37,980 bases of DNA. Source: a virus. The notes under the pieces were generated by a model. The model was given only the letters and a program-made list of their open reading frames with translations. It was not told the DNA's origin and made no database searches. The translations under genes were made by a program, and so were the position numbers. Positions within the stretch are counted from its first letter, which is position 1. Each line of letters begins with the position of its first letter. This document shows positions 1,105-37,432 of the stretch, piece after piece. Where the stretch lies: the IMG/VR virus record IMGVR_UViG_3300050821_007189, positions 1 through 37,980 of that record; one strand, written 5' to 3'.

Positions 1105-1503
1105 ATGGCCCAAGGTGGAAAAAGACCAGGCGCAGGCCGGAAGAAGGCAGAACGGCCCACCAATGCGAACGTCGCCGCGCGCGTTCTCGCCCAAGCCAAA
1201 GCCGAGCAGCTCTGGCTCTCGATGATCGACCTGGAGCGACGGCGCCTCGGGCTGAACAAAGACGGCACACTCAGCGAGAGAGAAAAGGGCGCGATCACAG
1301 ATGGTGAGTACCGCGGGAACTTTTCGATCATACCCCTCACCAACTTGCTCCGCTACCTCGAAGACCGCGCCTACGGCCGGCCAGTGGACACCGTGAACCA
1401 CCTGCACGACAAACCCATCGAGCACAACCTAAACCTCAATCTGTCCGAGCGCTTCCGCATCGCGATGGAGAAAGCCTCGAAACGTGTCAGCGACCTCCGC
1501 TAG
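1105..1503 (+). CDS. terS: terminase small subunit (candidate)
   Basis: A 132-residue basic protein begins with a GKRPGAGRKK motif (residues 5-14). That motif is typical of phage small-terminase-like and other DNA-binding N-termini. It sits directly before the large terminase, whose GTG start lies 20 bases inside this gene. The small subunit recognises packaging DNA and assists the large subunit. The rest is helical and not diagnostic, so the call relies on motif plus position. Confidence 0.7.
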   Translation: MAQGGKRPGAGRKKAERPTNANVAARVLAQAKAEQLWLSMIDLERRRLGLNKDGTLSEREKGAITDGEYRGNFSIIPLTNLLRYLEDRAYGRPVDTVNHLHDKPIEHNLNLNLSERFRIAMEKASKRVSDLR

Positions 1504-3028
1504 TTACGAGACGGACTACGAGCAGGAGCTGGTCGAGAAGCTCTATAGCTTCCGCCACGATCCGCTCGGCTGCGTTTTGTTTTCATTCCCTTGGGGCGAA
1601 GCCGGCACTGAGTTCGAGCACGATCCCGGCCCGCGCGAGTTCCAGCGCCGCACCCTCGAAGAACTCGGCGCGCATCTCCAGAATCCGGAGACGCGACACA
1701 AGCCCTTCCGCAAAGCGATCTCCTCCGGCCACGGCATCGGCAAGAGCGCACTCATCGCGCAGATCGTTCACTGGGCGAAATCCACCTGTCTGGATTGCAA
1801 AGTGCTGATCACGGCCAACACCGGCGACCAGCTGCGCTCGAAGACGCAGCCGGAAATCTCGAAGTGGTTTCGCAGCTGCATCAACAAAGACTGGTTTGAC
1901 GTGCACGTCACCTCGATCAAGATCAACGATGCCGAGCACGAGGACACCTGGCGCACCGATTTCAGCACCTGGAGCGAAGACAACCCGCAAGCCTTCGCCG
2001 GCGCCCACAACAAAGGAAAGCGCCTGGTCATCATCTTCGACGAAGCGGCCGGCATCTCCGATGTGATCTGGAAAACCGTGTCCGGCGCGCTTTCTGACGC
2101 CGACACCGAGATCATCTGGATCGCGATGTCGCAGGCCTTCCGATCGGAGGGCGCATTCTACGAAGCCGTCTTCGGGGATCAGAGGCATCGCTGGAACCCG
2201 GAAGTGATCGACAGCCGCACGGTGGAAGGGATCAACGTCGAAGAGATCGACGAAGAGATCAAAGTCTACGGAGAGAACTCCGATCACGTCCGCGTGCGCT
2301 GGCTCGGCCTGTTTCCTCTCGCCGGCGGCGGCAAGTTCATCGACCTTGACCTGGTCCAGCAATCGCAACACGCGCCCGGCTTCGCGCTCGACACCGATCC
2401 GCTCGTCGCCGGTGTGGACTTCGCCTGGGGTGGAGCTGACGACAACGTGATCCGCTTCCGCAAAGGACTTGACGCCCGCTCCATCCCGCCGATCAAAGTG
2501 AAAGGCCAGTTCACCCGCGACGCGGCGGTGATGGTGGGCAAGATCAGCGACGTGCTGAGCCGCACTTATGACGGCGAGAAAGTGGCGATGGTGTTTTTCG
2601 ATTCCGCCGGCATCGCTTCCTCGGTCTACTCCGGCGTGCGCGCGCTCGGCTATGAAGACCGCATCATGCTGGTGAACTTCGGCGCCGACTCACCCAAAGC
2701 CAGCTGCGCCTACTGGCGAGATTTTATGTGGGACGGCATGAAGCAGTGGATGCTGCGCGGCGGAGGGATCGACAAGGATCACGACCTGGCGGCCGATCTG
2801 CAGAAGCCGGTCCTGGTCTACGACCGCCTGCAGCGCGTGAAGCTTGAATCGAAAGAAGACATGAAGAAACGTCTGGCGAAGATGGGGCTCGACTCGGCAT
2901 CGCCCGACGATGGCGACGCGCTGGCTCTGACGTTCGCCGCACCGGTGTCGAAGCGTGCGCCGTTGACGGTGGACACGCCGCCGGCGAGTGTGAGTGCGCG
3001 ATCGAGCGATGGCGGGTGGATGGGATGA
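1484..3028 (+). CDS. terL: terminase large subunit (packaging ATPase/nuclease)
   Basis: This 514-residue packaging motor is close to the P22 gp2 length. The ATPase domain shows a Walker A-like SGHGIGKSA (81-89), a Walker B LVIIFDEA (181-188) with the catalytic acid, and a coupling segment near IWIAMSQ (211-217). The C-terminal RNase H-like nuclease shows acidic residues at D312 (GVDFAWGG), D373 (FFDSAG) and the DDGDA cluster (475-479). It starts at GTG 1484 within the small-terminase gene, suggesting coupling. Its stop overlaps the next ATG (3025). It cuts concatemeric DNA and drives it through the portal. Confidence 0.95.
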   Translation: MSATSASYETDYEQELVEKLYSFRHDPLGCVLFSFPWGEAGTEFEHDPGPREFQRRTLEELGAHLQNPETRHKPFRKAISSGHGIGKSALIAQIVHWAKSTCLDCKVLITANTGDQLRSKTQPEISKWFRSCINKDWFDVHVTSIKINDAEHEDTWRTDFSTWSEDNPQAFAGAHNKGKRLVIIFDEAAGISDVIWKTVSGALSDADTEIIWIAMSQAFRSEGAFYEAVFGDQRHRWNPEVIDSRTVEGINVEEIDEEIKVYGENSDHVRVRWLGLFPLAGGGKFIDLDLVQQSQHAPGFALDTDPLVAGVDFAWGGADDNVIRFRKGLDARSIPPIKVKGQFTRDAAVMVGKISDVLSRTYDGEKVAMVFFDSAGIASSVYSGVRALGYEDRIMLVNFGADSPKASCAYWRDFMWDGMKQWMLRGGGIDKDHDLAADLQKPVLVYDRLQRVKLESKEDMKKRLAKMGLDSASPDDGDALALTFAAPVSKRAPLTVDTPPASVSARSSDGGWMG

Positions 3029-4412: not shown

Positions 4413-6632
4413 ATGCCCGTCGTCCTCTCATCGAAATCAAAGAAGCGCTCGAAGGGGATCTCCGACGACGAGGATCTCATCCAGAAATCCCTGAAGCGCT
4501 TCAAGATCACCGCCGAATCGGAGTCGGAGTCGCGGCGCCAGGCGCTCGAAGATCTCAAGTTCTCAATCGGCACCGGCCAGTGGGATGAATCCGTCAAAGC
4601 CAACCGTGAGATCGAAGGCAAGCCGTGTTTGACCATCAACCGTGCCCCTGCGTTCCTCCGCCAGTACACCGGCGAAGAGCGCCAGCACCGGCCCGCAATG
4701 CTGGTGAGCCCGGTGGGATCGGGAGCGGATCTCGAAGTCGCCAAGATTCACCAGGGCGTGTTGCGCCACACCGAAGTCGTGAGCGTGGCCGACGTCACCT
4801 ACGACAACTCCTACGACATGATGATGCGCATCGGCTGGTGCCCGTGGCGGATCAAGGTGGATTACGTGCACGAGCGATCGTTTGACCAGGAGCCGCGCAT
4901 TGAAGCGATCGAGAATCCCTTTGCGGTCTATCTTTCGCCCGTGCGACGGCCGGACGGCACTGATCCGCTGTGGGGACACGTCGTCACCGACTACTCGAAA
5001 GAAGACTATGAAGCCGAGTTCGGCGAGACCGACATGGTGAAGTTGCACTTCCCCACCAGCCAGGGCAATGCCGAGCCGGACTGGGTGACGAAAGACGGGG
5101 CGCGCGTCGCCGAGTACTGGTGGATGGATCTGCAACGCAAAATGCTGTGCCAGCTCGACAACGGCTCGGTGCTTTTGGAAGAGGAGATCGCGAAGATCGA
5201 GCGAGATCCCGCTGGCAAGTTCCGCCGCAACCAGTTGCGGGATCGCATCGTCGATCAGCGGGAGACCACCATCCGCAAAGTGAACTGCGTCATTCACGAC
5301 GCGATGCGAGTGCTGAAGACCTACGAATATCTGGGGATGTATCTCCCCTTCCCCGAAGTCAACGGGGTGCGGCTGAACGTGAATGGCAAGGTCTACCGCG
5401 CCGGGATGGTGCGCGACTATCGCGACGCCCAGCGCATTTATGACTTCATGGTCACGCGCCAGGTGGAGCAGGTGGACATGGTGTCGAAAGACCCGCTCTG
5501 GGTGCCCGATGCGAACGCACAGTACGGCGAAGACTATCGCCAGATGAACCGGAAGAACTTCTCTCACCTGTTTTTCAAAGCTTACGACGGAGAAGGGCGC
5601 CAGTTGCCGCAACCCGCGCGCGCCGGGCGGGAAGCTCCTATCCAGGCGATGACCGAAGTGATCAAACAGGCCGACTACGACATGAAATCCGTGATCGGCA
5701 TCTACGGATCGAGTCTGGGCGAAGAAGCGGGCAGCGCACAGGAGTCCGGCTTCGCCATCATGAACCGCCGCGAGCAGTCCGACACCGGGGCAGTGACCTG
5801 GCATGACAATTTGAACCGCGCGATTATGTGGCAGGGCAAGATCCTGCTCGATCTCTGGCCGAAGCTGATCAACGCAGCCCGCGTGCAGCGCATCGTCAAT
5901 CCCGACGACAGCGTGAAGCATGCCGTGGTCTTCAACTCCCAGTACAGCGACCCGGCAGAAGCGCAGCAACACCTGAACGAACAGCTCGGGCTGAAAAAGG
6001 CTTACGACGTGGGAGCTGGCACCTATGACCTCGTCTTATCCAGCGGGCCAATGTATGCCACCGCGAGAAAAGAGGCGTTCAAGGCTCTGACTGCGGTGAT
6101 CAGCGAAAATCCGGAAATGATGCTGCCGATGGTGGGTGACATCTGGGCCAAGAATGCCGACTTCCCGGACGCCGATGTTCTCGCGGCCCGCTTCAAGAAG
6201 ATGCTGCCTCCGAACCTACAGGACGAGAGCGCCGAGGACGCACAGTCGAAGTTGCTGGCCCTGCAATCGCAACTGCAGCAGCTCAGCCAGGCGCACGATC
6301 TCATGGTGCAGGAGTTGAGCCGCGCCGACGACACCATCCGCACCAAGCGCCTCGATCTCGAATCGCGCGAACGTGTCGCTCTGATGAACAACTGGACGCA
6401 GCTCATGCTGCAGCGCCTGAAATCGCACGACGTGGCGGCCCAAGCGCAGATGGATGCGCAGCTCGAAGCCATCACGCAGCGGCTCTCGGTGCTCCACGAA
6501 AACATGAGCATCCAGGACGATGCTGGCGCCCCCGTCAACACGCCGGAACTCTCAAACTCCGTCGAACCCAAAGTGCAGCCGATCACGCCCGCCGCGCCCA
6601 CGCCCCGACCGCAACCCGTAGGAGGGATGTAA
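4413..6632 (+). CDS. portal protein, P22-like
   Basis: A 739-residue portal, close to P22 gp1 (725). The N-terminal segment resembling PCLTINRAPAFLRQYTGEER (about 70-90) followed by RPAM is characteristic of the P22-type portal family. The dodecameric portal forms the DNA channel and docks the terminase and then the tail. The C-terminal region (about 606-699) is Gln/Leu-rich and predicted to form a long coiled coil, as in the P22 barrel. The last 25 residues are Pro-rich. It starts directly after a TAA and ends in TAATG with the next gene. Confidence 0.93.
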   Translation: MPVVLSSKSKKRSKGISDDEDLIQKSLKRFKITAESESESRRQALEDLKFSIGTGQWDESVKANREIEGKPCLTINRAPAFLRQYTGEERQHRPAMLVSPVGSGADLEVAKIHQGVLRHTEVVSVADVTYDNSYDMMMRIGWCPWRIKVDYVHERSFDQEPRIEAIENPFAVYLSPVRRPDGTDPLWGHVVTDYSKEDYEAEFGETDMVKLHFPTSQGNAEPDWVTKDGARVAEYWWMDLQRKMLCQLDNGSVLLEEEIAKIERDPAGKFRRNQLRDRIVDQRETTIRKVNCVIHDAMRVLKTYEYLGMYLPFPEVNGVRLNVNGKVYRAGMVRDYRDAQRIYDFMVTRQVEQVDMVSKDPLWVPDANAQYGEDYRQMNRKNFSHLFFKAYDGEGRQLPQPARAGREAPIQAMTEVIKQADYDMKSVIGIYGSSLGEEAGSAQESGFAIMNRREQSDTGAVTWHDNLNRAIMWQGKILLDLWPKLINAARVQRIVNPDDSVKHAVVFNSQYSDPAEAQQHLNEQLGLKKAYDVGAGTYDLVLSSGPMYATARKEAFKALTAVISENPEMMLPMVGDIWAKNADFPDADVLAARFKKMLPPNLQDESAEDAQSKLLALQSQLQQLSQAHDLMVQELSRADDTIRTKRLDLESRERVALMNNWTQLMLQRLKSHDVAAQAQMDAQLEAITQRLSVLHENMSIQDDAGAPVNTPELSNSVEPKVQPITPAAPTPRPQPVGGM

Positions 6633-8596: not shown

Positions 8597-9868
8597 ATGG
8601 CCAACATGGTCCTTACCAACCAGGAGATCAGCTTCAAGAACCTGATGGTGCTTGAAAACTCGATCTCCTTCACCAAGAAAGTCGTCCGCCGTTATGACGA
8701 CAAATTCGGACGCGCCGGCGCGAAGATCGGCTACATCCTCAACATCCGCAAACCCGCGCGCTCCGTATCCACCGCCGGCCAAGGCATCCAGCTTCAGGAC
8801 TACATCGAGCGCTCGGTGCCCCTGGTCCTCAACAAGCAGTACCAACAGGCATGCGCATTCACCTCTTCCGATCTGGCGCTGTCACTCGATGATTTCACCA
8901 ACCGCGTGACGAAGCCGAAGATCGTGCAGCTCGCCAACGACATCGACTACGACGGCCTGCAGCAGTTCGCCAACGTGCCGGCAGAGGTTGGGACGCCCGG
9001 AACGGTCCCCAACACCCCGGACACGTATTTGAACGCCTTGCAGGTCCTGGCCGATGAAGGTTTCCCGGTCGATGACGAAGAAGGACTCTCGGTACACATC
9101 TCGCCCCGCATGCAGCGTGCCATCTTTCCCGCTCTGCAGGGCCTGGTCGCAACCGGAGGCGGCACCGCAACATTCGCTTTCCTGCGCAATCTGGCGAAGG
9201 GCCAGGGCGGCGAGAGCGATTACTTCAAAGGCCTGGTCGCCAAAGGCCTGGGCTTTGACTGGTTCATGACCCAGAACGCTCCCACGTTCACCACCGGAAC
9301 GCAGGGCGGATCGGGAACTGTGAACGGCGCGAACCAGACGGGTAGCTCGATCGCGACGCAGGGCTGGTCGAACAACATAACGAACCTGCTAGTGGTCGGC
9401 GATGTAGTCTTCTTCGCCGGCGTGCACCGCATCAACCCGCTTACCCGGCAGTCCACAGGCGATCTGCGGCCGTTTGTGGTGACGGCTAACGTGAACTCGA
9501 ACGGCTCCGGCCAGGCGAACATCCCGATCGCCTGCGTCGATGGCGACGGCATCACGCTCGCCGGTCCTTACCAGACCGTCGATGTGTCGCCGGCGAACTC
9601 GGCGGCTATCACGGTGCAGGGCGCGTCCGCGGTGCAGTCCTATCGCGGCGTCGCTTTCCACCCCGAGGCGTTCTGCTTCGGCTGCGCCGATCTGGAGATG
9701 TACGACAACCAGCACATCATGGAGATGGCCGCGGATAAAGAACTCGGCCTCGCCATCCGCATGTGGGCGATGCCGGACATCAACACCGACCGGCTGCTGA
9801 TGCGGCTTGACGTGCTCGGCGGCTGGCTCACAATGTATCCGCAGGGCGCCGTCCGGATCGCCAGTTAG
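8597..9868 (+). CDS. major capsid protein, P22 gp5-like coat
   Basis: A 423-residue coat protein, almost the length of P22 gp5 (430). It opens with the family pattern MANMVLTNQEIS and a long N-arm helix. The body carries the HK97-like fold elements, including an inserted beta-rich region around residues 220-340 (Gly/Thr/Asn-rich), comparable in place to the P22 insertion domain. It follows the scaffold with a 17-base gap and a weak purine-rich site (AGGGGAAA). It forms the icosahedral shell. Confidence 0.92.
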   Translation: MANMVLTNQEISFKNLMVLENSISFTKKVVRRYDDKFGRAGAKIGYILNIRKPARSVSTAGQGIQLQDYIERSVPLVLNKQYQQACAFTSSDLALSLDDFTNRVTKPKIVQLANDIDYDGLQQFANVPAEVGTPGTVPNTPDTYLNALQVLADEGFPVDDEEGLSVHISPRMQRAIFPALQGLVATGGGTATFAFLRNLAKGQGGESDYFKGLVAKGLGFDWFMTQNAPTFTTGTQGGSGTVNGANQTGSSIATQGWSNNITNLLVVGDVVFFAGVHRINPLTRQSTGDLRPFVVTANVNSNGSGQANIPIACVDGDGITLAGPYQTVDVSPANSAAITVQGASAVQSYRGVAFHPEAFCFGCADLEMYDNQHIMEMAADKELGLAIRMWAMPDINTDRLLMRLDVLGGWLTMYPQGAVRIAS

Positions 9869-28548: not shown

Positions 28549-29031
28549 ATGGCGACTCAATCGACAGCATCCCACAATCCGTCCGCGTGCTCAAGCGGAA
28601 AAGCGCGCTTCGCCGAAGCTGCGCGGGAAGCTCTTGAGTCCCTCCGGCCATTCCTTCCCGAGCTGACCGACATCGACCACAACGCCGCCCGCAATGGCGG
28701 CAAGCCTTCCGCGTTTCACCTCGCGGCGCTGAAGGCTCACCTGGCACTCGCGGGAATGGAGTTGAGTGTCGCAAGGCGCAACACCCAGAGCGGAATCGAT
28801 TTCTACCAGGTTTTTGATTTCGCGACAGCGACGGCACGCCCTGCGGCACTCAATCCTGTTCCCGAACTCCCGACCGAGCGAAGAGAGCAGGAATCGTCTG
28901 CCAGAGCTGGAAGAAAAAACCTGGTCCGAAGGCCGGGGCGAATTTTGCCCCGGCTGCTGCCCGAGCTGGGAACAAAAAACCTGGAATGCGTGGAGCCACC
29001 CAAACGGCGGTTTCACAGGGAGGGATTTTAG
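28549..29031 (+). CDS. hypothetical early protein
   Basis: A 160-residue protein. Residues 20-80 are helical (KARFAEAAREALESLRPFLPEL, interrupted by IDHNAARNGG, then FHLAALKAHLALAGMEL). From about 105 the sequence becomes Arg/Pro-rich and low in pattern, so the true protein may be shorter or the tail poorly conserved. It ends just before the candidate replication origin. No family is recognised. Confidence 0.5.
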   Translation: MATQSTASHNPSACSSGKARFAEAAREALESLRPFLPELTDIDHNAARNGGKPSAFHLAALKAHLALAGMELSVARRNTQSGIDFYQVFDFATATARPAALNPVPELPTERREQESSARAGRKNLVRRPGRILPRLLPELGTKNLECVEPPKRRFHREGF

Positions 29032-29035
29032 GGTG

Positions 29036-29058
29036 TTGGTTTCTTTACTTGATACCAG
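29036..29058 (+). other. candidate rolling-circle double-strand origin (nick site)
   Basis: ACTTGATA (29047-29054) lies in a T-rich stretch, in the loop of a small hairpin with TGGT (29037-29040) and ACCA (29054-29057), immediately before the Rep gene. Rep_1 plasmids of the pC194/pUB110 type and phiX174 are cut within CTTG^ATA; here the cut would fall between 29051 and 29052. The 7-mer also occurs by chance elsewhere (6828-6834), so location and hairpin carry the argument. Confidence 0.5.
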
Positions 29059-30164
29059 TGAATAAGTCGACAGATCAAACCGAAGCTCTTGATTCTAGGG
29101 TTTTTGGCTCTTGGGGTGTTTTGGATTCTGGGCCTCAACAATTTCTCGGGACGGAGTTTCGTCTCTTAGATCGTTACGAGATTCAGGCGGGGTTGGTGGA
29201 GACCTTGAAGCAGGCAAAAAATCATCGGGTTCGGAGGAAAGCGGCGGCCTGTTCTGACTGCCATCGCAGTTTCCGCCACTGGCGCTGCCGGAACAGCCAC
29301 GACTGGGCCGAAGCTGAGAACTCCTGCTCGGTTCGGGTTTGCCCGCACTGTTCTCATCGTCGTGCGAAGGTGCTCGGCTCCCGGATGGAGCGTTTCCTTC
29401 TGGGTCGGGAGAAGACTTCTCTGCGCTACGCAGTCTTAGCGGAGCGCAACTCTGAAAATGTGGCTGAGGGGATGAATCTTCTGTGGGAGTCGTGGACTCG
29501 GCTGCGCCGCTCAGTGCGCTGGAAAAACAAAGTCAAGGGTTGCATCGTTGCGCTCGAAGTCACCTACAACCGCGAGGAAGACACTTGGCACCCGCACCTG
29601 AATGTGCTGATGGAAGGCGAGTACTTCCCTTTCGAGGAATTACGCCAGGCGTGGAGTGAAGCGTCAGAACATCGCGGCCAGACTGCCTTCATTCGCGCGG
29701 CGGATGCGGGGACGGTGAGCGAGTTGATTAAGTATGTCACGAAAGTTTCCGACCTGATCGGCAACCCGCATGCGCTCGAAACTCTGTTGCTCGCTGTTCA
29801 CAAAAAACGCTTCGTTCGTACCTACGGCAGTTTTTATGGGCTGTCGGTTGCCGACGAAGAAGCTCCGGTGCAGAGTCACTGCCCCGATTGTGATTCGACG
29901 GAGTTGGTCGCTCTGGGCCGGATCAAACCGCAGCAAGTCAGTATGGATTTTGACGGGATTCTGCGCGTGCAATCGCGCGCGCCGGATGAGGTGGCGAGAG
30001 ATTTTGAGGAGAGCGCTTCGTTCCGTCCCGGTTTGTTTTTGCGTCACAAGTATGCGCCTCGTCCCGGTCAGGAAAGAACCCCGGCATGGGCGGACGCTTT
30101 CGACGACGGCGTGCGGGCGTTTTCGCGCGCGAAGTACACGGCATCGCGGCAACCAGCCGCGTAA
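29058..30164 (+). CDS. rolling-circle replication initiator (Rep_1 / HUH family)
   Basis: A 368-residue protein from GTG 29058; ATG 28986 (392 aa) is possible but overlaps the previous gene and the origin-like site. It has a zinc-type N-terminus (ACSDC, CRNSHDW, then RVCPHCSHRRA), the HUH metal motif in TWHPHLNVLM (H178 and H180), ALEVTYN before it, the likely nicking Tyr in IKYVTK (Y226), and a VHKKRFVRTYGSF segment as in pUB110-type Rep. It nicks one strand and binds covalently to start rolling-circle replication. T-rich third positions in its 5' part differ from its GC-rich neighbours, suggesting acquisition from a plasmid. No clear ribosome binding site is visible. Confidence 0.87.
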   Translation: MNKSTDQTEALDSRVFGSWGVLDSGPQQFLGTEFRLLDRYEIQAGLVETLKQAKNHRVRRKAAACSDCHRSFRHWRCRNSHDWAEAENSCSVRVCPHCSHRRAKVLGSRMERFLLGREKTSLRYAVLAERNSENVAEGMNLLWESWTRLRRSVRWKNKVKGCIVALEVTYNREEDTWHPHLNVLMEGEYFPFEELRQAWSEASEHRGQTAFIRAADAGTVSELIKYVTKVSDLIGNPHALETLLLAVHKKRFVRTYGSFYGLSVADEEAPVQSHCPDCDSTELVALGRIKPQQVSMDFDGILRVQSRAPDEVARDFEESASFRPGLFLRHKYAPRPGQERTPAWADAFDDGVRAFSRAKYTASRQPAA

Positions 30165-30176
30165 GGAGCAATACCG

Positions 30177-30530
30177 ATGGCAACAGCACCAGCAACTCCA
30201 ATCACTCGGCGAAAGATGCAGGAAGTTAAAGCGCCGGAGCAGTTCACCTTCAACAAACAGGGTCAGCTCGCAGCCGGGATTTTGATCTCGATCGAACCTG
30301 TTCCGGTCAAAGGAAAACAGGCGATGGAGTATCTGTTTCAAGCTGAAGGCGGCGGCCGGTTCACTTGTCTCGGCACGGCGGACCTCGACAAAAAACTCAC
30401 ACCCCATCACATTGGCCACTACGTCGAGATTCGCTATGAACGCGACGATTCGTCGTTTACCAAGCCGGGGCAGAGTCCGATGAAGGTTTTCAAAATCACG
30501 GTGAGTGAAGAACGCGAACCGGGATTCTGA
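30177..30530 (+). CDS. possible OB-fold single-strand DNA-binding partner of Rep
   Basis: A 117-residue protein behind AAGGAG, 12 bases after rep. A disordered N-terminus is followed by alternating strands (FTFNKQGQLAAGILISIEPV, MEYLFQAE, RFTCLGTADL, GHYVEIRYE, MKVFKITV) compatible with a small OB-like barrel. Its place next to rep suggests a single-strand-binding role during rolling-circle replication. No sequence motif proves this. Confidence 0.55.
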   Translation: MATAPATPITRRKMQEVKAPEQFTFNKQGQLAAGILISIEPVPVKGKQAMEYLFQAEGGGRFTCLGTADLDKKLTPHHIGHYVEIRYERDDSSFTKPGQSPMKVFKITVSEEREPGF

Positions 30531-30558: not shown

Positions 30559-30819
30559 ATGGGAAGCGTAAACAATTTGCCGACTGAGAAACCTAGCCTT
30601 CCCGGCTCAGTCAGCCGGAGTGACGAGGGTTGCGGAATTCCTGGGGGAGTCGCGGCCCTCGACACTCGCGTCGAGTTCATGCGCTTCTGCGAACACTGTC
30701 AGGAAGAGCGTCAGTTCATCTGTGCCTGGTACTCGCTGGCGGGGCTGATCGGAAGGTGTCTCTACTGCGGGACGCCGGATGTGGCGGAGTACACGCGCGT
30801 GAATTCGGAGGTGGCGTGA
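30559..30819 (+). CDS. zinc-ribbon small protein
   Basis: An 86-residue protein with CEHC (about 44-47) and CLYC (67-70), a typical two-knuckle zinc ribbon; the first 38 residues are Ser/Pro/Gly-rich. AGGGAGGG lies just upstream. Its TGA overlaps the ATG of the methyltransferase, and a GGAGGTGG inside its end serves that gene. Function unknown. Confidence 0.62.
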   Translation: MGSVNNLPTEKPSLPGSVSRSDEGCGIPGGVAALDTRVEFMRFCEHCQEERQFICAWYSLAGLIGRCLYCGTPDVAEYTRVNSEVA

Positions 30820-31385
30820 TGCGACGTCGACCACGAGTGGAAGTTTTGTGGTGTCCGAACCGACGTCGCGAAGCGAAGCGATCTGGCTGGTCATTTCCTC
30901 CGATTATCGAAACCAAGATCAAGGAATTTTGCGACGGCCGAGTTCTTCAACTTTTCGGCGGTCAGGCGAAATTCGGCGTGCGGCTCGATGTCGATCGCGC
31001 AACGAAGCCGGATGTGATCGGCGATGCGTGGATGCCGCCATTCGCGGCTCGCAGCTTCGACACGGTTGTGCTCGATCCACCCTACTTCGAGCTGGACCGG
31101 GAGCAGCTCGGGGCGCTGATGATGACGGCGGCACACCTGACGCGGCATCGGGTGATCTGGCTGCATCAGCTCTGGGCGCCGTCGCAGTTCGGGCTGCAAT
31201 TAGATCACGGCTATCTCGTCCGCGTCGGCGATAACCACTTCGTTCGCTGCCTTCAGATGTTTCGGCGGAGTGCGAGATCCGTTCCGGCACCGAAGTACTT
31301 CACGCGCGGCCCGCAGCAGAAATATAACCGCTGGCTTCGCGGCGAGATGCCGCTTCCCTTCACGGCGCAATTGGAGGTCGCATGA
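30819..31385 (+). CDS. DNA methyltransferase with DPPY motif
   Basis: A 188-residue protein from ATG 30819, overlapping the previous stop and preceded by GGAGGTGG. The Rossmann-type core reads VLQLFGG (43-49, SAM loop), GVRLDVD (53-59, acidic end of strand 2), GDAW (68-71) and FDTVVLDPPY (80-89); DPPY is the catalytic motif of adenine-N6 or cytosine-N4 methylases. It is short and has no separate recognition domain. Phage methylases of this kind protect DNA from restriction or mark it. Its stop overlaps another ATG. Confidence 0.82.
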   Translation: MRRRPRVEVLWCPNRRREAKRSGWSFPPIIETKIKEFCDGRVLQLFGGQAKFGVRLDVDRATKPDVIGDAWMPPFAARSFDTVVLDPPYFELDREQLGALMMTAAHLTRHRVIWLHQLWAPSQFGLQLDHGYLVRVGDNHFVRCLQMFRRSARSVPAPKYFTRGPQQKYNRWLRGEMPLPFTAQLEVA

Positions 31386-31774: not shown

Positions 31775-31966
31775 GTGAAAAAGGGTGACAAAGTTCGCAT
31801 TAAAGCGACGAAGCCGGACGGCTCACCGCATCCGCACGCTGGGAAAACTGGCGTTGTGGATGAAGTCTGGATCACGGTGCCGCGCGTCACAGTCCTTCTT
31901 GATCGGGGCCAGAAGGACGGCGGAAATTTCGCCATCGTTTCAGCCGCATCGGTGGAAGCGCTATGA
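31775..31966 (+). CDS. small KOW/SH3-like protein
   Basis: A 63-residue protein from GTG 31775. It begins KKGDKVRIKATKPDG and continues HAGKTGVVDEVW, the strand-turn pattern of a KOW or SH3-like barrel that binds nucleic acid or protein. ATG 31771 is in a frame that closes at once. Its TGA overlaps the ATG of the next, frameshifted gene. Confidence 0.6.
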   Translation: MKKGDKVRIKATKPDGSPHPHAGKTGVVDEVWITVPRVTVLLDRGQKDGGNFAIVSAASVEAL

Positions 31967-32182
31967 GCGAACACTACCCCCGCCACACCCGTCTCCGCCT
32001 CCGCCTGGTGCCCCAAGTGCCAGAAGCAGACACAGCACCGCATCGACGGCACGCGCAAAGGTCCGTGCATCCCCTGCATGGAAAAACACGACGCCGAAAA
32101 AGCCGTCATCGACATCGACGAGCTGCGCCGAAAACTTTCTCCTCCCCCACAAATTTCACTCTTCGAGGAGATCGCAAAATGA
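31963..32182 (+). pseudogene. zinc-ribbon gene interrupted by a +1 frameshift
   Basis: ATG 31963 overlaps the previous TGA, but its frame becomes Arg/His-rich nonsense. From 31982 another frame encodes a convincing zinc ribbon: WCPKCQ, then GPCIPCMEKH, a helix and the end PPPQISLFEEIAK, with TGA 32180-32182 overlapping the esterase ATG (ATGA). Removing one C from the run CCCCC (31977-31981) joins the two parts into a 72-residue protein. This is either a sequencing or assembly indel, a real mutation, or a programmed +1 shift. QISLF near the C-terminus resembles the sliding-clamp-binding motif. Confidence 0.65.
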
Positions 32183-33078
32183 AACGCAACTTCGTTCTGA
32201 CTCTGGCCCTGACGCTTCTCTGCCCGCTCTTTATCGAAGCGCAGAACGGCACACCCTCCATGCTCTACTCCACCTGGAACGGGATTCCGCGGCAGACCGT
32301 GCTCTATGCGCCGCCGAACTTCCGCCCCGGCTCCCCGCTCGTGATCGTGCTGCACGGCACGGCAGTCGCCCCACCATCCGATCCGCCCATCGGCGTCTAT
32401 CACTTCATGGGATGGGACCAGCTTGCGGACGCGAACAAGATCCTCGTCGCCCAGCCGATTGCAACCTGGAAGGCGATCCCGCACTCAGGACCGAGCGGCG
32501 GAGCGTTCTTCTGGGAGTCGATTGGAACCGAATCGTATTTCCCCGTCGATCCCGACGACAGCGGATTTCTGGCGAACCTGGTCACCACGTTGCAGCAGCA
32601 GTACCAGACCGATCCGAAGCGCACCTTCGTCATGGGCTTCAGCTCCGGCGGGATGATGACGCAGACGATGGCAATTCAGCACGCCGAACTGTTTGCAGCG
32701 GCCGCGCCCTTCTCAGGAACGGTGTGGGTCAACAATCCGGGCACACTGACCCAGCCTTCGCAGCCGGTCTCGATCATCGAATTTCACGGGGACATGGACA
32801 CGACGATTCCCTACTGCGGCGGACTCTTCAATGGGTGGGGCGAGAAGAACATCGTCATCCCGTCGATCGATGCAGACCTGAATTACTGGCTGGCGGCGGA
32901 CGGCTTACCGGCAGAGTCTTTGCCGATGTGCAGCTCGGGATCGCCGGCCGCTCCGAGCTTCGATTCCGGACCCGCGAAGGTCGAAGTGCAGATCGTGCGG
33001 GAGTACAGCTTCGCTCACACCTGGCATCAGCCGGAGATTGCGATGGCGTGGGCGTTTTTCTCGACGCATGGAAGGTGA
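32179..33078 (+). CDS. secreted alpha/beta hydrolase, PHB depolymerase / feruloyl esterase-like
   Basis: A 299-residue protein from ATG 32179, with GAGGAG eight bases upstream; the frame is open further upstream but only as shadow. Residues 1-21 are a signal peptide (KRNF, Leu/Thr core, FIEA). The hydrolase core shows LVIVLHG (54-60, oxyanion loop), nucleophile S155 in GFSSGG (153-158), D207 in HGDMDTTIPY (203-212) and H280 in AHTWH (279-283). This triad and spacing match the LpqC/PHB-depolymerase and feruloyl-esterase family (COG3509). The phage-encoded secreted enzyme may cleave polyesters, plant-derived esters or acetylated surface glycans; substrate is unknown. Confidence 0.83.
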   Translation: MKRNFVLTLALTLLCPLFIEAQNGTPSMLYSTWNGIPRQTVLYAPPNFRPGSPLVIVLHGTAVAPPSDPPIGVYHFMGWDQLADANKILVAQPIATWKAIPHSGPSGGAFFWESIGTESYFPVDPDDSGFLANLVTTLQQQYQTDPKRTFVMGFSSGGMMTQTMAIQHAELFAAAAPFSGTVWVNNPGTLTQPSQPVSIIEFHGDMDTTIPYCGGLFNGWGEKNIVIPSIDADLNYWLAADGLPAESLPMCSSGSPAAPSFDSGPAKVEVQIVREYSFAHTWHQPEIAMAWAFFSTHGR

Positions 33079-35996: not shown

Positions 35997-36689
35997 TTAG
36001 AACTCCAGTTCGTCCGGCGTGTGGTTCATCGCCGCCACCACGAGCTGCGGCCTGCCCGGTAGTTGCATCATCACATCGGCGATTTCCGAATTGAAGTGCT
36101 CGACGTTGTGCTCCAGTTGCTCGATGAAGTGCTCGACCGACTCGCGCTCCAGCCGCCGGATGAACAGTTGCAGGTGTTCCGGCATCCGGGGATCGTAGCT
36201 CACGAAGTCGGACCAGGTGCGCGTCGGGTTGCAGGAAAACTCCGCCAGCATTTGAGGCAGGTGCTCAAGCGGAACGGTCCCGCCGAGAATCCACCCCAGA
36301 TGCGTCGCGGTCGTGGGGCACTTGATCTGGAGCATGCCATCGTCGCCCACGAAGCCATCCGGAGAGCAGCCGAAGCGGGAGATGTACGGATTCACCACGA
36401 AGCCGCAGGTCTCGACCAGCACGCCGCACCTCAGCTCGTATTCCACGCGGGCGTCAGCTTCGTGATCGATACCCCACTGCATCTCTCGCGTGACGTGGCG
36501 TGGATACGGATGCCCGCTGAGGATTTCGCAGATCAACTCCGCGCGGTAGTGCGCCCGCTCGGACTTCTCTTCCCCCTTTTTGGTCATGGCTACGACGTCG
36601 GCACAGCGCGAAGCGGTCACGAGACCACAGCGCGCCTGACGCCACTCCGGCCCGCCCTGTTCGAGTTTCACCAGTTCGAGCGGCGTCAT
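35997..36689 (-). CDS. YqaJ-type phage exonuclease
   Basis: A 230-residue protein of the YqaJ/lambda-exonuclease family, which digests one strand for recombination. N-terminal GPEWRQARCGLVTASRC (13-29), GIDHEADARVEYE (73-85), and the active-site region FGCSPDGFVGDDGMLQIKCP (106-125) are clear. The catalytic pattern D-x(n)-E-x-K reads D111...Q121-I-K123, so the usual Glu is Gln. Activity may be reduced or another residue may compensate. Its ATG overlaps the stop of the ERF gene, its natural partner. Confidence 0.85.
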   Translation of the reverse strand: MTPLELVKLEQGGPEWRQARCGLVTASRCADVVAMTKKGEEKSERAHYRAELICEILSGHPYPRHVTREMQWGIDHEADARVEYELRCGVLVETCGFVVNPYISRFGCSPDGFVGDDGMLQIKCPTTATHLGWILGGTVPLEHLPQMLAEFSCNPTRTWSDFVSYDPRMPEHLQLFIRRLERESVEHFIEQLEHNVEHFNSEIADVMMQLPGRPQLVVAAMNHTPDELEF

Positions 36690-37432
36690 CGGAGTTCCTT
36701 TTTCCGATCATCCTTGGCGCGAATGAAGGCTTCGAGCGCATCCCGGTCGTTGAATTTCTTGGCCTCGTTCCCGGCGGAGAGATAGCGCCCGCGCAGCTCC
36801 TCGATGGTGCGCGATCCCGCGATCTCGAAGCACAGTTTGCGAACGCGCTCCGGGTTCATGGGCGTGGCGATGGTGCAGACCTGCCCGTTGCCGTCGTTGT
36901 CATCTTCGCCGATGGCGATGTTGAAAATGTTCTTCAACAGATAGCGCTTGGCGTAGGAGTCCGCGCTGGCGTCGGCGTGAATCGGCGTCATCACGTCGCC
37001 ACCCTTCGGCCCCTTGGTCGATGGGGAAAGGTCTTTGAACCGTTCGCGCGTGACGCCGCCGCGCGAGATGTAGGCCACGAAGCGCGTCTTGCCGGGAATG
37101 GGACAGTCGCGCTCGCCAAACGAGATGGCGAAACCTTCTGCGGTGTAGATGGGACGGACGATCCGGTCGAGCTTCGCATAGCTGGCGTAGCGCGATTGGG
37201 TTTGCGGATTGGTGGCGTCGGCGGAAATGCGCTGCACTCGCTCTTGGCAGCGGCTCAGCGCGTCGTCGAAATCAACGTTGGCCTGATACTCGCGCTCCTC
37301 GCGCTGCAAGTTAACCAGCCGCTCGATTACGTCGATAGCGGCATTGCTTTCGAGGGCCATCGTGAGCAGGTCCAGCGGTTTGCGGACGAGATGGTGAACC
37401 TCGGGACTAAGCGGCTGCTGTGCGGTTGCCAT
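36686..37432 (-). CDS. erf: ERF-family single-strand annealing protein
   Basis: A 248-residue protein of the ERF family (P22 Erf). Core pattern: TQSRYASYAKLDRIVRPIYT (77-97), FAISF, then KGGDVMTPIHADASADSYA and KRYLLKNIFNIAIGEDDNDG (162-181). It anneals complementary strands made by the exonuclease, allowing recombination and genome circularisation. AAAGGA lies upstream of the ATG. The C-terminal 60 residues are helical. It forms one operon with the exonuclease. Confidence 0.88.
   Translation of the reverse strand: MATAQQPLSPEVHHLVRKPLDLLTMALESNAAIDVIERLVNLQREEREYQANVDFDDALSRCQERVQRISADATNPQTQSRYASYAKLDRIVRPIYTAEGFAISFGERDCPIPGKTRFVAYISRGGVTRERFKDLSPSTKGPKGGDVMTPIHADASADSYAKRYLLKNIFNIAIGEDDNDGNGQVCTIATPMNPERVRKLCFEIAGSRTIEELRGRYLSAGNEAKKFNDRDALEAFIRAKDDRKKELR

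Follow-up and report, generated by a model that had tools for sequence, protein, structure and literature searches.

A probable rolling-circle replication cassette of a soil tailed phage and its relatives, with a Rep_1-type initiator and a conserved DNA element across the start of its gene

Here we describe a segment (positions 29040-30530) of a soil tailed phage, which is quite probably an exchangeable phage replication cassette of the rolling-circle type, composed of an initiator, an origin nested in the initiator gene and a single-strand DNA-binding protein. The window analysed is the whole viral record, 37,980 bp long. The initiator gene, rep, belongs to the Rep_1 family and its catalytic residues are conserved, a DNA element that spans its start is linked exclusively to it, and both are distributed as a module among phages with different heads. 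The initiator family and the type of origin are known ones; it stands out by an unusual residue of the active site, the nesting of the origin and a new viral context. The known ways in which tailed phages initiate replication rely on theta-type initiators or on two-tyrosine HUH proteins of the P2 type, and P2 and its relatives are tailed dsDNA phages that replicate by rolling circle with the HUH initiator gpA (Phage_GPA-type).

The window contains a large terminase subunit, a portal and a major head protein, which places it among the Caudoviricetes (Table 1). Scanned against Pfam and PHROGs, its ORFs include no recognised polymerase, replicative helicase, primase or other initiator, and about half of the small ORFs belong to no known family, so that a second replication system may lie among them. 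A recombination pair, consisting of an ERF-type annealing protein and its YqaJ-type exonuclease partner, is encoded near the right end. Other genes deserve a mention in their own right: a phage co-chaperonin sits between the terminase and portal genes, an alpha/beta hydrolase follows rep as an accessory gene, and genes of 178-201 aa similar to the short tyrosine recombinase of the window are present in the relatives G009, G001 and G008 as well as in the rep-less phage G413.

Table 1. Features of the window, with their positions and the basis of each assignment
Feature	Position	Strand	Basis
Short tyrosine recombinase, 186 aa	504..1064	+	Catalytic domain only (PF00589)
Terminase large subunit	1484..3028	+	phrog_2 122 bits
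Cpn10/GroES-like co-chaperonin, 149 aa	3963..4412	+	Cpn10/GroES match 30.1 bits (cut-off 21.1)
Portal protein	4413..6632	+	phrog_156 296 bits
Major head protein	8597..9868	+	phrog_283 196 bits
GC-rich hairpin GCCGGGGCGAA-T-TTTGCCCCGGC	28932..28954	+	~105 nt ahead of rep
Proposed double-strand origin (dso)	29040..29075	+	DNA-level conservation; straddles the GTG start
CTTGATA, Rep_1-type nick heptamer	29048..29054	+ (rep's strand)	Match to Rep_1 nick site
rep, Rep_1-type rolling-circle initiator, 368 aa, GTG start	29058..30164	+	PF01446
OB-fold protein, 117 aa, probably ssDNA-binding	30177..30530	+	Directly 3' of rep
DNA methyltransferase-like	30630..31385	+	DPPY motif (phrog_3816, 27 bits)
Alpha/beta hydrolase	31963..33078	+	Several Pfam families, best 31.9 bits
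YqaJ-type recombination exonuclease, ERF partner	35997..36689	-	PF09588 65.7 bits, phrog_149 117 bits
ERF-type single-strand annealing protein	36686..37432	-	PF04404 37.7 bits, phrog_155 70.4 bits

The initiator, its active site and its neighbour

A sequence-only reading of this DNA had recognised a Rep_1 initiator, and the profile search agrees: the product of rep matches PF01446 at 65.2 bits (8.4e-18), the gathering cut-off being 33.2, and a six-frame search of the record with Rep_1 gives 1.6e-18. The cysteines of the Zn-type N-terminus (C68, C77, C90 and C95 in the window Rep), the motif E-V-T-Y-N and the motif E-x-x-K-Y are all conserved in the Rep alignment. The last of these reads E222-x-x-K225-Y226 in the window, i.e., a single tyrosine with a glutamate four residues before it and a lysine beside it, and E-x3-Y is present in 21 of 21 aligned sequences, plasmids included. 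A single tyrosine with a glutamate four residues earlier is the arrangement of the pC194 Rep.

The metal motif of the window Rep, H178-P-H180-L-N182, is invariant across the tailed-phage clade. Where plasmid proteins have H-P-H-F-H (H-F/L/I-H), all tailed-phage members, together with G010, have H-P-H-L-N. Thus, the HUH signature that had been proposed holds as a conserved metal motif but not in its canonical His-hydrophobic-His form, the second histidine being an asparagine (H-U-N). This one-residue departure may be compatible with function, by analogy with the HUQ motif of active circovirus Reps, where the second histidine is likewise replaced (PMC9973303). For Rep, AlphaFold2 yielded a poor model (pLDDT 49), and a Foldseek search with it gave no significant fold match, the HUH Rep 9pqf appearing among the non-significant ones. 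Searches of PDB sequences, both with Rep and with its OB-fold neighbour, returned chance matches only.

Rep has also been considered as an IS91/ISCR-like rolling-circle transposase carried by phages, the conserved element being its terminus. The profile Zn_Tnp_IS91 matches weakly, at 26.0 bits, just under its cut-off of 26.3, and a relationship of IS91 transposases with pUB110 Reps appears in the title of a reference listed in PMC5714925. Nevertheless, Rep_1 is matched at 65 bits, whereas the catalytic profile of IS91 transposases is absent from the Pfam matches; there is one copy per genome, with no second terminus or copy found elsewhere; and the linked OB-fold gene and the E-x3-Y motif with its single tyrosine, like that of pC194, do not fit such an origin. 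Even conceding that in G001 the CTTG of the others is replaced by GTTC, we consider a transposase very improbable.

As regards composition, T-ending codons reach 0.38 in rep codons 1-60, vs. 0.09-0.18 in 12 other window genes sampled, in agreement with the bias noticed in the sequence-only reading. The recent transfer deduced from it is, however, unsupported, since the rep genes of the relatives are likewise T-rich (0.12-0.33 by segment), which makes composition a family trait, and since the cassette has diverged to about 50% protein identity of Rep among tailed phages.

The OB-fold gene adjoins rep in all relatives except G003, where it was not detected, and a homologue stands beside rep in two Acidobacteriota chromosomes. 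The AlphaFold2 model of its product (pLDDT 74) has as nearest folds mostly OB domains, including those of LEF-3, RPA, PRD1 P12 and PrgE, with weak fold scores (Foldseek E-values of 0.008 or worse, VIA Z below 8). On the basis of this model, the protein likely binds single-stranded DNA.

A DNA element across the start of rep

An element of ~36 bp (TTTCTTTACTTGATACCAGTGAATAAGTCGACAGAT in the window) is present at the start of rep in ten of ten distinct records, while the DNA that flanks it is not conserved. These records are the window and its relatives, from which G005 was dropped as near-identical to G004. Nine relatives were obtained by protein search of a viral collection and the tenth, L029, through a DNA pattern; a profile search of viral contigs added no Rep relatives to the first nine. 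Across the ten sequences, 12 of the 16 nucleotides before the start codon are invariant, as are 14 of the 18 in codons 1-6. At positions -150 to -41 the count is 0 of 110, and other 18-nt stretches of the rep codon alignment reach at most 12 of 18, with a mean of 3.1. Moreover, T5 and D6 are encoded by one codon each in 10/10 sequences, which elsewhere happens in 3 of 70 invariant-residue columns, and in L029 the residues differ (N2L, S4L) with the DNA of the element nearly kept. Both facts indicate a constraint on the DNA and not on the peptide. Furthermore, when 2.9 million viral contigs were scanned, either half of the element occurred in rep-bearing contigs only, once in each.

We propose that the 5' half of the element constitutes the nick region and that its 3' half, overlapping rep codons 1-6, constitutes the region bound by Rep. 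PMC10378824 gives CTTGATA as the conserved nicking site that Rep_1-like proteins recognise. By analogy with pC194-class origins the cut is predicted between 29051 (G) and 29052 (A). The heptamer alone is no evidence, as it occurs in the window near chance frequency (2 copies vs. 1.14 expected); it is conservation that gives it significance. As for ACTTGATA, the ten phage contigs contain seven copies of it, each lying 11 nt ahead of rep. CTTGATA is exact in 6/10 distinct phages, the others having CTAGATA (G006, G007 and L029) or GTTCATA (G001). This weighs against the proposed cut: the site would have to accept variation, or the heptamer would not be the place of cutting in all of them. The same pair of rep and proposed origin is found in related phage contigs, where the sequence-only reading had advised to look for it, although the heptamer that it had expected upstream of the gene is altered in 4/10. 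Only in G001 (L002:7060-7090) does GTTC stand in place of CTTG at the presumed nick site, and CTTGATA is found nowhere else in that contig.

The same reading had placed the nick site in the loop of a small hairpin, which had to be abandoned: its folding energy is -1.8 kcal/mol (z = -0.03), no better than that of shuffled sequences, and in the four-pair TGGT/ACCA stem the third pair is kept in 3/10 sequences and the fourth in 5/10. A stable or conserved hairpin around the nick site is therefore ruled out, both by folding energy and by loss of the stem in relatives. The GC-rich hairpin listed in Table 1 is a separate structure, near-identical in G001 and G002, other relatives having different GC-rich hairpins at a similar place; it is a candidate terminator, attenuator or single-strand origin.

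More distant homologues carry the comparison beyond the phages. The lone match in the genome collection, the Acidobacteriia MAG contig L048 (42% identity), has TTTACTTGATAACTGCGAATAAGTC before rep, and a profile search of 399 genomes of the Acidobacteriia class yielded three more Reps, those of G114, G250 and G174. ACTTGATA lies at the rep start in all four of these remote Acidobacteriota homologues, each of them with CTTGATA. It is read as S-L-D (frame 2) in G114, G250 and G174, and as Y-L-I (frame 1) in the window and L048, so that here too what is conserved is the DNA and not the peptide. The sequence 3' of the heptamer is, in turn, clade-dependent (AATAAGTCGACAGAT vs. CATCTAGCAACA), as would be expected if a conserved catalytic domain cut the heptamer and a clade-specific surface bound the rest. 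Of seven remoter Rep_1 replicons, six carry CTTGATA at 32-541 nt ahead of rep and on its strand; the six comprise one inovirus and five of the six plasmids checked.

These data bear on whether the element would be a regulatory site for rep, be it an operator or a leaderless promoter or translation signal, instead of an origin. It does overlap the GTG start, ahead of which no Shine-Dalgarno sequence is present. However, its core is the known nick heptamer of the family, which in plasmids lies at the above distances from the gene, and in the remote homologues, which keep this core, both its reading frame and its spacing to the start differ. We thus regard a purely regulatory site as unlikely; Rep autoregulation at the origin is common, and both roles may coexist.

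Distribution among phages and related replicons

Rep and the element are common to phages of at least four different head or packaging modules. The P22-like terminase/portal module is that of the window, G001 and G009, and the combination that had been pointed out at first is upheld: a P22-like terminase/portal phage has a plasmid-type initiator, and beside it a nick site of the pC194/pUB110 class. G002 and G004 have a phrog_21 portal with a phrog_617 head protein, G002 having also a phrog_15 terminase, and G003 resembles them by ORF layout only. G006 carries a phrog_9 terminase, a phrog_12 portal, and tape-measure and J-like genes, and G008 a phrog_10963 portal and a head protease. On the other hand, 16 terminase relatives of the window gave no Rep match, among them G413 and G414, contigs of about 41-43 kb with terminases 83% and 77% identical to that of the window. 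Different heads with rep, and close terminase relatives without it, imply that rep and the element travel independently of the head genes. G008 and G004 encode a HerA/DUF87-like ATPase ahead of rep, and the rep-less G413 has a homologue (L009:6863-8608, L005:6863-8704 and L154:5877-7607).

That the element would serve for packaging (cos/pac) or for attachment (attP) is barely conceivable, even if one conserved site per phage would suit either role. A common packaging site is not expected among at least three terminase or head types, a search of 399 Acidobacteriota-class genomes that allowed up to 3 mismatches revealed no attB-like copy, and not all element-bearing phages have a match to the short integrase-like gene. 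A decidedly unlikely case is that of rep as a moron or decaying passenger, in a phage with a different, unrecognised means of replication. In its favour, many ORFs of the window fall in no known family, and sister phages without rep replicate somehow; against it, the catalytic motifs and the origin are strongly conserved at about 50% Rep identity, no disrupted copy was seen, and no alternative replication gene was recognised in the scanned ORFs.

The rolling-circle cassette, which remains our preferred explanation, has counterparts in plasmids. It shares with the pC194/pUB110 class the Rep_1 family, the Zn-type N-terminus, E-x3-Y and a CTTGATA upstream on the strand of rep, and it differs from that class in a Rep of about 25% identity with Asn for the second HUH His, an origin over rep codons 1-6, a linked OB-fold gene and a tailed-phage genome of ~38-46 kb. 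P2 gpA, unlike the window Rep, belongs to a different HUH family, with two tyrosines, and not to Rep_1. Reps of Myoviridae have been grouped with a different plasmid cluster (PMC6668415).

Among phages, pUB110-like Reps are described in filamentous ones, such as Propionibacterium phage B5 and inoviruses from porcine gut (PMC6668415). The inovirus MT135285 has CTTGATA 142 nt upstream of rep, and the pairing of Rep with a single-strand DNA-binding protein also recalls filamentous phages; these, however, are tailless ssDNA phages with a small genome, and the match is 29% identical over 41% of Rep. This Rep clade is in no tailed phage among 50,697 GenBank phage records. Against them, the window Rep matches inoviruses only; with plasmid Reps as queries, the further matches are a microvirus, a satellite phage, a small unclassified virus and Listeria phage LIS04 (OQ999172). 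The latter is, like the window, a tailed phage with a Rep_1 homologue (“protein Rep”), but it measures 181 kb, its 250-aa Rep is not matched by that of the window, and no OB-fold partner is annotated. Its gene (OQ999172.1:148545-149297, L056) lies between nucleotide-metabolism genes; since the rep strand lacks CTTGATA immediately ahead of this gene, LIS04 was rejected as a second tailed-phage example of the rep-origin pair. In the open-licence literature, no tailed phage with Rep_1 was found.

As for the Acidobacteriota homologues, G114, G250 and G174 have Rep_1 with ACTTGATA at the start, in integrated elements (G114:C54 ~116.6-127 kb, G250:C3 ~599.8-601.4 kb and G174:C8 ~346-355 kb; L067-L072), two of the three with an OB-fold gene. 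They differ from the window in a canonical H-x-H and in the 3' half of the element. The integrated element of G174 also differs in that it encodes a phage lysozyme and small membrane proteins with no terminase recognised; sequence searches with its putative capsid protein identified nothing. Possibly, the three elements represent an undescribed family of tailless prophages.

The sequence-only reading had left a choice between an unusual rolling-circle replication mode and a phage-plasmid lifestyle. The second finds no backing. Partition or plasmid-maintenance genes are absent from the Pfam and PHROGs matches of the scanned window ORFs, many small ORFs being matchless, and the 127-bp terminal overlaps that make circular assemblies of four relatives would equally be given by circularly permuted virion DNA. 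The first is probable, judging from the initiator and the adjacent nick site. That reading had overlooked the Asn of the metal motif, the reach of the element into rep codons 1-6, the OB-fold gene immediately 3' of rep and the presence of the cassette in phages whose capsid genes are unrelated.

A proposed course of replication and its meaning

From sequence, we infer the following course of nicking, strand displacement and product formation. At the 36-bp element that spans the start of its gene, Rep would bind to the 3' half, and Tyr226 would cut the + strand at CTTG^ATA, Rep staying on the 5' end, with the metal held by His180 and Asn182 together with Glu167 or His178. The freed 3'-OH would prime the leading strand, using host DNA polymerase and a host UvrD/PcrA-type helicase, and the OB-fold protein would coat the displaced strand. 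Termination would come about by hydrolysis, allowed by Glu222, in the way proposed for pC194. Unit circles or, through read-through or ERF/YqaJ recombination, concatemers would result and be delivered to the terminase. Since initiator and origin overlap, the replicon would move as one piece, and hence be present in phages with unrelated heads.

A wider proposal can be advanced, although we hold it as rather doubtful: a virus replicon with an H-U-N initiator, a nested origin and a single-strand DNA-binding protein would circulate both among tailed phages, with four or more types of head, and among integrated elements of Acidobacteriota that are apparently tailless, as the sole replication system of the tailed phages and possibly also allowing these to persist as rolling-circle episomes. 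The cassette itself, a one-tyrosine Rep of the pC194 class with its origin in a terminase phage, raises the question of how rolling-circle products would become packageable concatemers. The change from His to Asn at the metal site represents a natural variant of biochemical interest. To our knowledge, few replicons or cultured phages of Acidobacteriota are known, and the cassette would offer a ready origin for their phages. If it is indeed exchanged as one unit between phages with unrelated heads, the replicon pools of plasmids and of tailed phages are connected.
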